Positions 17,023-31,789 of a stretch of DNA of 32,108 nt are shown here, in pieces. Each line of letters opens with the position of its first letter. Position 1 is the stretch's first letter. The stretch comes from Alphaproteobacteria bacterium (GTDB taxonomy: Bacteria; Pseudomonadota; Alphaproteobacteria; UBA6615). The stretch is from the NCBI GenBank assembly GCA_027297685.1, contig JAPUHN010000298.1, forward strand, positions 1-32,108. The letters are read 5' to 3'. The position numbers and the translations under genes are program-made. The notes below the pieces were generated by a model. The model was not told the origin of the DNA. It worked only from the letters and a program-made list of their open reading frames with translations, and made no database searches.

Positions 17023-17205
17023 CTAGGAATAAATTCCGATAGCGCCACCGACTACGGCGCCTAAAATTCCAGCGATGATGGCGACGTTTTCGTTGGGGAC
17101 GCCCGGATTTTCCTTACTGCGGATATCAAACATAGCGGCAAACGCGTGACCGAGAATGAAGCCGACAACCGCTCCACCTACTAGAAAAAGAATTGTTGTT
17201 TGCAT
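17023..17205 (-). CDS. Small glycine-rich two-TM membrane protein, unknown function
   Basis: 60 aa MQTTILFLVGGAVVGFILGHAFAAMFDIRSKENPGVPNENVAIIAGILGAVVGGAIGIYS; two hydrophobic glycine-zipper-like segments flanking a polar loop; the composition looks like a real membrane protein. Confidence 0.55.
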   Translation of the reverse strand: MQTTILFLVGGAVVGFILGHAFAAMFDIRSKENPGVPNENVAIIAGILGAVVGGAIGIYS

Positions 17206-17320: not shown

Positions 17321-17594
17321 GACTCATACCAAATCTCGCTAGTACGGACCCCTTTCATGGTGACGGATTGGCCCGCCCGGTCAGGCGCGCGGCACAGCGC
17401 GATGCGGGGCCATCGGGCAAGCCGCGCAACGCCGCCGGAGGGCCAATCCGCCCCACCGCAGGCCGCCATCCTTTGTCCGCCGGTGTCGTTGCGGGCCGCT
17501 TGCGGTGCCAGCACCGCGGCGCAACCCGCGCCTATCCGGCGGATAAAATATAGGCGGTGAAATGGGTCTGTATTAACGAGACTTGGTATTAGTC
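17321..17594. repeat. Structured intergenic element (MITE-like or structured RNA candidate) with 37-bp imperfect terminal inverted repeats
   Basis: 17321-17357 vs reverse complement of 17558-17594: 31/37 identical, no gaps. Internal IRs CGGATTGGCCC (17364-17374)/GGGCCAATCCG (17440-17450) and TCCGCCGG (17476-17483)/CCGGCGGA (17536-17543). Confidence 0.75.
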
Positions 17595-17771
17595 GCCATG
17601 CGAAATTGGGATTGCGATTGGTCATCGCGGCAGATTTGACCCAATGCGCACCTTCCAAGCGAAAATGCTGATTTGGCGGCGGACGGCTGGTAGTGCGTAG
17701 AAGAGAATGCGCCTAGCCGTTTCGAATGTATCATGGCACTGTTGCGGCGTTGTTTTTCTTCAGAGAATTTG

Positions 17772-18965
17772 ATGCCGTTACGCTGGGTCATGTTAATCGT
17801 TCTGTTCCTGGTGCGGCTCGCCATGGGCTACCAGTTTCAGTCCGTTGCCTCGGTATCCTCCCATCTCGTGAACGAGCTCGGCTTCAGCTATGCCCAGGTT
17901 GGTACGCTAATTGGGTTCTTCGTGCTGCCTGGCATCGTCATCTCGATTCCGAGCGGTGTTCTGACGCGCGCGGTCAGCGATAAGACGCTGCTGATGTTCG
18001 GCGCGCTGACAATGGTTGTCGGGGCGCTGGTAATGGGAATTGGCGCGGGCACTTCGGAGCTCTATGTGGGCCGCCTGATCACCGGGATCGGCGGCACCAT
18101 TTTCAATGTGATTCTGACTAAAATGGTCACCGACTGGTTCGATGGGAAAGAGATCGTCACGGGATTGGCCGTCATGCTGACGGCGTGGCCGATCGGCATC
18201 GCGCTCGGCCTTCTGACCCAGGGCTTTATTGCCGATACCTATGGCTGGCCTTGGGCGATGCACGCCACCGGCGGTCTGGCGCTGGTCGCGTTTCTGTTGA
18301 CGGCAACGCTATACCGCAATCCACCGCGCGCCACACTCGCTGCCAATCAACCACTGCAGTTTAGCGTACCGCGCCGTCAGCTCGTTCACATCAGTGTCGT
18401 TGGCCTCGGCTGGGCTCTTTTTAATGTGAGCTTAATCATCGTGGTGAGTTTTGGACCGGACGTTTTGATCGAGCATGGCTACGAGGCAGGCGCGGCGCGG
18501 GCGACAATCAGCCTTGCCACCTGGTCGATGCTGATTTCGATCCCTTTTGCTGGCCGGCTAATGGAAGTGTTTGGCTGGATAACGCTTTCCACAGTCGCGA
18601 GCCTGACGGTGGCAGCTGGCGTTATGGCAGCGCTCTCGCAGGGCCTGGCGCCGGAGATGCTCAGCGTTGCCTTCGGGCTGATTTTTGGTATCCCGGCCGG
18701 CGCGTTGATGGCGCTAACGTCGCAAGCGCTTAGCCCCGACAACAGGGGGCCGGGACTGGGAATTTTCTACACTTGGTATTTCGTCGGTATGACGATTGGA
18801 CCCGCATTTGCCGGTAGGATGCGCGATCTGAGTGGCGCCGCCGCACCGCTGATTGCTGGTGCCGTCATGCTCATCGCCGTGGTTATGTGTGTCGGCGCGT
18901 TGCGGGCGCTTCAACGCATCTGGCCGATCGAAGGGGTGCCGAAGCGCGATGTGGTTTCTGGCTAG
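17772..18965 (+). CDS. MFS transporter
   Basis: About 397 aa, 12-TM-type hydrophobic pattern, LNELGFSYAQVGTLIGFFVLPGIVISIPSGVLTRAVSDK-like MFS motif A region. Start chosen at ATG 17772 (MPLRWVM); the track ORF begins at 17733. Confidence 0.9.
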   Translation: MPLRWVMLIVLFLVRLAMGYQFQSVASVSSHLVNELGFSYAQVGTLIGFFVLPGIVISIPSGVLTRAVSDKTLLMFGALTMVVGALVMGIGAGTSELYVGRLITGIGGTIFNVILTKMVTDWFDGKEIVTGLAVMLTAWPIGIALGLLTQGFIADTYGWPWAMHATGGLALVAFLLTATLYRNPPRATLAANQPLQFSVPRRQLVHISVVGLGWALFNVSLIIVVSFGPDVLIEHGYEAGAARATISLATWSMLISIPFAGRLMEVFGWITLSTVASLTVAAGVMAALSQGLAPEMLSVAFGLIFGIPAGALMALTSQALSPDNRGPGLGIFYTWYFVGMTIGPAFAGRMRDLSGAAAPLIAGAVMLIAVVMCVGALRALQRIWPIEGVPKRDVVSG

Positions 18966-20231: not shown

Positions 20232-20251
20232 GATCGCGATCCTCGACCCCA

Positions 20252-20317
20252 TCCTTCGACAAGCTCAGGATGAGGTTTGGTATGCGTCGGCATCCTCATC
20301 CTGAGCTTGTCGAAGGA
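20252..20317. repeat. Dispersed palindromic repeat, copy 1 (24-bp perfect arms)
   Basis: TCCTTCGACAAGCTCAGGATGAGG (20252-20275) and its perfect reverse complement (20294-20317), 18-nt spacer. Confidence 0.95.
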
Positions 20318-20335
20318 CGAGGATGAAGACGGCGC

Positions 20336-26680: not shown

Positions 26681-26705
26681 ACGCCATCCGGCGGCGCCCG
26701 CATCG

Positions 26706-26721
26706 TGAGCTTGTCGAAGGA
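26706..26721 (+). repeat. Solitary half-copy of the dispersed palindromic repeat
   Basis: TGAGCTTGTCGAAGGA, identical to the corresponding segment of the 20294-20317 arm. Confidence 0.7.
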
Positions 26722-27024
26722 GAGGGAGCCGGGCCGCTTACTTGTATGTCGAGGAATGACGCTGGTTGGCGTATATCAGCGTCGTCCGGGTGAGGCCGTC
26801 TCATACTGAGGCCGGTGATCGTGATCGGCCTGCTGATCAGAAAAAACATTTGGTGCGCGGCCTCAGCTTCGGCTTCGTGCGCCGGGCAAATTAAGGGGGA
26901 CCTCACGGCTCGCCTGTCGACGCATGAGTTAGCAATCCAACTTCGCACCTCGACGTGAATGCGACGGGCCGGCGCCGCCACAGCTATAAGAATTTCTGAT
27001 ATGGATTATCGAGATACATAATTA

Positions 27025-31686: not shown

Positions 31687-31767
31687 TCATCCTTCGACAA
31701 GCTCAGGATGAGGATTTAAGAGGACGCGAAAAAACAAACCCCTCATCCTGAGCTTGTCGAAGGATGA
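31687..31767. repeat. Dispersed palindromic repeat, copy 2 (27-bp perfect arms)
   Basis: TCATCCTTCGACAAGCTCAGGATGAGG (31687-31713) and reverse complement (31741-31767), 27-nt spacer; lies between convergent DMT (+) and YciI (-) genes. Confidence 0.95.
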
Positions 31768-31789
31768 AGGGTAAGGCGCGATAAATCCC

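Follow-up and report, generated by a model that had tools for sequence, protein, structure and literature searches.

A non-coding mobile element flanked by TNA triplets in an alphaproteobacterium, with a probable IS630-type mover

Among described systems, one close to the element reported here is RUP of Streptococcus pneumoniae, which occurs with IS630-Spn1. Like our element, RUP is a non-coding intergenic sequence whose terminal inverted repeats (TIRs) match those of an IS630-family insertion sequence (IS), its presumed mover in trans; it is, however, 107 bp long and inserted at TA, whereas ours measures 262 bp, is GC-rich, carries a TNA duplication and is unrelated in sequence (PMC2229807). 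ISY100, of the IS630 / Tc1-mariner group, resembles the presumed partner of our element by its transposase family, its single DDE transposase and its short TIRs. Almost all insertions of ISY100 are nevertheless into TA, with duplication of these 2 bp, whereas TNA is the probable duplicated target in the group considered here (PMC2170065). Correia/NEMIS, ERIC and CIR are, similarly, small palindromic intergenic elements giving fold-back transcripts, but their described sizes and ends set them apart; CIR, also present in Alphaproteobacteria, is listed without TIRs (PMC2229807).

The window, that is, the whole stretch of 32,108 nucleotides analysed, contains at positions 17327 to 17588 a sequence that is almost certainly a copy of a non-autonomous mobile element (MITE). 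It runs over 262 bp from TACCAA to TTGGTA, or 264 bp if the flanking A and T of the TNA copies are included, and its ends were set at the points where homology between 22 full-length copies stops. The sequence-only reading had placed these ends at 17321 and 17594. The inverted-repeat arms on which it relied are real, and the segments 17321-17357 and 17558-17594 do pair, without gaps, at exactly 31 of their 37 positions; the alignment of sister copies, however, puts the true ends, TACC and GGTA, at 17327 and 17588. Homology stops sharply at ATACC/GGTAT, so that the outer GACT/AGTC of the proposed arms belongs to the host flank.

The left TIR, TACCAAATCTCGCTAGTACGGACCCCTTTC, occupies 17327-17356 of the forward strand, and the right one 17559-17588, reading TACCAAGTCTCGTTAATACAGACCCATTTC on the minus strand; the left arm is defined by its pairing and is kept in other copies. 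Between them, the predicted fold delimits two arms to which, as to the element itself and its flanking triplets, no strand is assigned: a GC-rich nested palindrome centred on GCGCGATGCGGGGCCATCGGGC (17358-17455) and a second, imperfect GC-rich hairpin (17462-17558). The 11-bp internal stem CGGATTGGCCC/GGGCCAATCCG and the stem nested in it were both found, and the closing stem with two arms in a three-way layout, already noticed from the letters, was recovered in the predicted fold of both strands. The centre of the first arm is also present in repeats with other ends: its central hairpin (17396-17435, GCGATGCGGGGCATCG-like) recurs within repeats of related genomes that are bounded differently (CTAGAGCA...), at loci L033-L036 and L038 of genomes G020, G022, G013 and G007. 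This suggests that modules are exchanged between families of MITEs, or that the centre is under some constraint.

The element lies between divergent genes, since a 60-aa membrane-protein-like ORF (MQTTILFLVGGAVVGF..., 17023-17205, assigned from its sequence and devoid of Pfam match) is on the minus strand and an MFS transporter gene (17733-18965; Pfam MFS_1, E=3.9e-37) is on the plus strand, starting 144 bp past the element. This copy is not located at a stop codon. No conserved protein had been recognised in the element, and this was borne out: the ORFs of 88-127 aa that overlap it belong to no Pfam or NCBIfam family and were treated as spurious for that reason. No orthologous empty site was found: at the loci of the nearest MFS homologues (proteins 70-72% identical), alignment with the window is confined to the MFS gene.

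The host genome (3.84 Mb in 396 contigs, 97.9% complete) was searched by BLAST with the element, which returned 85 matching pieces. Twenty-two copies are full-length (263-265 bp) and have flanks unrelated to each other, and about ten more are partial. The pairwise identity of the full-length copies is 86-96%, with a median of 91%, and each lies 3-9% from the consensus. The same genome contains internally deleted copies, TIR-to-TIR miniatures of 33-70 bp and a sister subfamily whose ends are TACCAAGGGTCAGTGATA; the TIR motif occurs in it 82 times, against none for a reversed control. The copy-number search suggested with the first description thus reveals a multicopy family with sharp ends and conserved TIRs, and the accompanying search for target duplications finds TNA flanks across its copies. 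Together with a transposase-bearing element having the same ends, these properties uphold the mobile-element reading originally offered as one of two possibilities. The family is short, non-coding, bordered by TIRs, multicopy at unrelated loci and associated with a target duplication; its autonomous counterpart with the same ends is found in G013, a genome of the same GTDB family as the host, and is not intact in the host assembly. Comparison of the MITE DNA with plasmid and phage collections gave no match. One further copy (G030:C681) was not counted as independent spread because it shares its left flank with host contig C169; it is probably due to mis-binning or to a shared locus. Solo TIRs on host contigs C41, C8, C138, C162, C242 and C44, where no transposase-bearing element was recognised, were taken as truncated or chance ends. 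A second palindromic repeat family of the window, CCTTCGACAAGCTCAGGATGAGG, is arranged in inverted pairs in a REP-like manner (20235-20334, 26698-26735 and 31687-31778).

When the element is taken as TACC...GGTA, its flanking triplets are of the form TNA. In the window the left triplet is TCA (17324-17326) and the right one TTA (17589-17591), their register being given by sister copies flanked by TTA/TTA or TAA/TAA; the single mismatch between them is that of a decayed duplication. Thirty-five (35) host copies have both ends; the middle base of TNA is concordant between left and right in 22 of them, compared with 13.1 in shuffles (p=0.0013), and discordant in 13. Elements with related ends in other genomes are concordant in 16 of 23 cases (5.9 when shuffled). 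The signal is cleaner in other Alphaproteobacteria than in the host: the complete genome G304 gives 16 of 19 (5.2 when shuffled), with TCA/TCA, TGA/TGA, TTA/TTA and TAA/TAA all represented, and agreement is total in G034 (6/6) and G066 (9/9). Both in the host and in G304, TNA is mostly preceded by a pyrimidine, in general C, and followed by a purine, in general G, which yields a CTNAG-like context; IS630 itself prefers CTAG as its target. The 2-bp TA duplication typical of the IS630 family is not what these elements display. Under such a classical duplication, identical elements would need ends lying one base apart in their TTA and their TAA copies, and the occurrence of TCA/TCA and TGA/TGA flanks excludes it; one Rhizobium IS has copies with the same ends flanked by TTA/TTA and by TAA/TAA. 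It is very probable that the family duplicates a 3-bp TNA target. For IS630-type elements, this would represent a departure from the TA specificity of the literature, and a search by title found no relevant account of IS630 with TNA, nor of MITEs in stop codons.

The TIR was found in 20 of 385 genomes scanned across the class, and in three of these (G013, G102 and G267) it is directly followed by an IS630 transposase coding sequence. The G013 element is complete: it spans 1,167 bp (G013:C495:2100-3266), is flanked by TAA/TAA and has termini nearly identical to those of the MITE, the right end agreeing at 12 of 12 and 16 of 20 bases and the left end being less similar. Its transposase is encoded by two overlapping ORFs in different frames. 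The C-terminal one matches the NCBIfam IS630 model (NF033545) with 153.6 bits for a cut-off of 100, the N-terminal one reaches 86 bits, and Pfam recognises DDE_3 (1e-26) as well as HTH_33. Homologues on plasmids, about 75% identical, carry an IS630-family annotation, and several have TACC-like ends; seven plasmid IS630 copies are flanked by TTA/TTA or TAA/TAA, and TAA/TAA was also read on either side of an Azospirillum copy that has a TACCAAGTCC end. Within the host assembly no intact IS630 was found, only a degenerate transposase fragment (C172:6843-7082). In G102, about twenty copies of a single IS end are located at contig ends, which illustrates how draft assemblies lose elements of this type, and an intact host IS630 could have been lost in the same way. 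The family is nevertheless probably no longer active in the host, as only this decayed fragment is left and the copies have drifted from their consensus. Similarity of the ends (12-16 of the 20 terminal bases) and the same kind of duplication, both observed in another genome, point to an IS630-type (Tc1/mariner-like) transposase as the likely mover of the MITE. This enzyme, a DDE transposase supplied in trans, would bind and cut the TIRs of about 30 bp (TACCAARTCTCGYTAATACGGACC...), and the non-coding element would move by cut-and-paste into a TNA trinucleotide, duplicated upon insertion. Taken as a whole, this account is highly probable. The element is of a known kind, the MITE, and its family stands out by the TNA duplication and the placement of many copies at stop codons; as a MITE it is ordinary, and would usually go unnoticed or be wrongly annotated as an RNA or as small ORFs.

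The nature of the duplication itself invites another mover, since the IS5-type (IS1031-like) group uses 3-bp TNA duplications and might have mobilised a MITE with TACCAARTCTCG ends. This is very unlikely, as the transposases lodged inside TACC-ended elements are of the IS630 type and the sole DDE_Tnp_1 match in the host (contig C62) has 30-bp ends unrelated to those of the MITE. The latter locus (L137, G000:C62) encodes a 540-aa DDE_Tnp_1 transposase between perfect 30-bp inverted repeats and is unrelated to the TACCAA family. It is scarcely credible, on the other hand, that the element is a REP/BIME-like repeat owing its spread to a tyrosine (RAYT) transposase: it is indeed palindromic, extragenic and repeated, and very short TIR-to-TIR forms of 33-59 bp exist, but it combines long TIRs with target duplications, which REPs are not known to do.

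The first description had also considered a structured RNA upstream of the MFS gene, and a cis-regulatory or small RNA controlling this gene, conserved for its fold, would suit both the position of the element 144 bp upstream and the stability of the three-way fold. The 274-nt stretch reaches -168.7 kcal/mol on the plus strand and -171.7 on the minus strand (z about -9.3; 0 of 200 shuffles equally stable). The two strands fold alike, however, as is expected for any inverted repeat, and the copies adjoin unrelated genes. Double changes affect one pair among the 22 aligned copies, against 0.9 in shuffles, in a comparison whose power is limited by the identity of about 91% between the copies. Within the consensus fold, GC pairs show 30 C>T changes, which keep a G-U pair, and 23 G>A changes, which break the pairing (p=0.41), and an Rfam scan of the window gave no match at the gathering threshold. 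Lacking covariation beyond shuffles, a bias preserving G-U pairs and an Rfam match, the RNA alternative was abandoned as extremely improbable. Under transposition by an IS630-type enzyme, the internal palindromes would be inherited from the founder copy rather than kept up as RNA.

On one of the two strands, every TNA triplet reads TAA or TGA. Of 35 host copies, 10 have a duplicated TNA that serves as stop codon to an ORF at least 100 codons long, against about 11% of comparable nearby TNA sites, non-coding or stop-codon (p about 0.004). This excess was spotted post hoc in the host and then tested in G304, G066 and G034 with a simple ORF caller and on small samples: stop codons account for 12 of 19 copies in G304 (p 5e-7; 10 of 16 by a second detection, p 2e-5), for 7 of 9 in G066 (p 0.002) and for 2 of 6, not significantly, in G034. 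The excess is seen in three of the four genomes tested; of eight autonomous plasmid IS copies, none is at a stop codon. At such insertions the duplication restores the stop. The loss of insertions within genes accounts for the extragenic location of the copies, but not by itself for an excess over intergenic TNA sites, for which targeting, selection for hairpins at 3' ends or a bias of the null are possible origins. We tentatively envisage, as an idea that may well prove wrong, that a branch of alphaproteobacterial IS630 shifted from TA to TNA and that its MITEs actively favour stop codons, the stop being regenerated and the hairpin forming a new mRNA 3' end. If such a preference were true, the stop codon would be a safe harbour for insertion; the excess would offer a simple model of how a mobile element can multiply where genes are densely packed and yet leave them unbroken, and strong hairpins may end up at mRNA 3' ends. 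Among seven genomes scanned, G066 holds by far the most matches to the TACCA(A/G)(A/G)TC.. end pattern (~190) and appears heavily colonised. The copies examined in G304 (loci L268-L287) are MITEs of 118 bp and those in G066 (L294-L306) of about 150 bp, all with the same ends; 12 of 19 and 7 of 9, respectively, coincide exactly with the stop codon of a long ORF.
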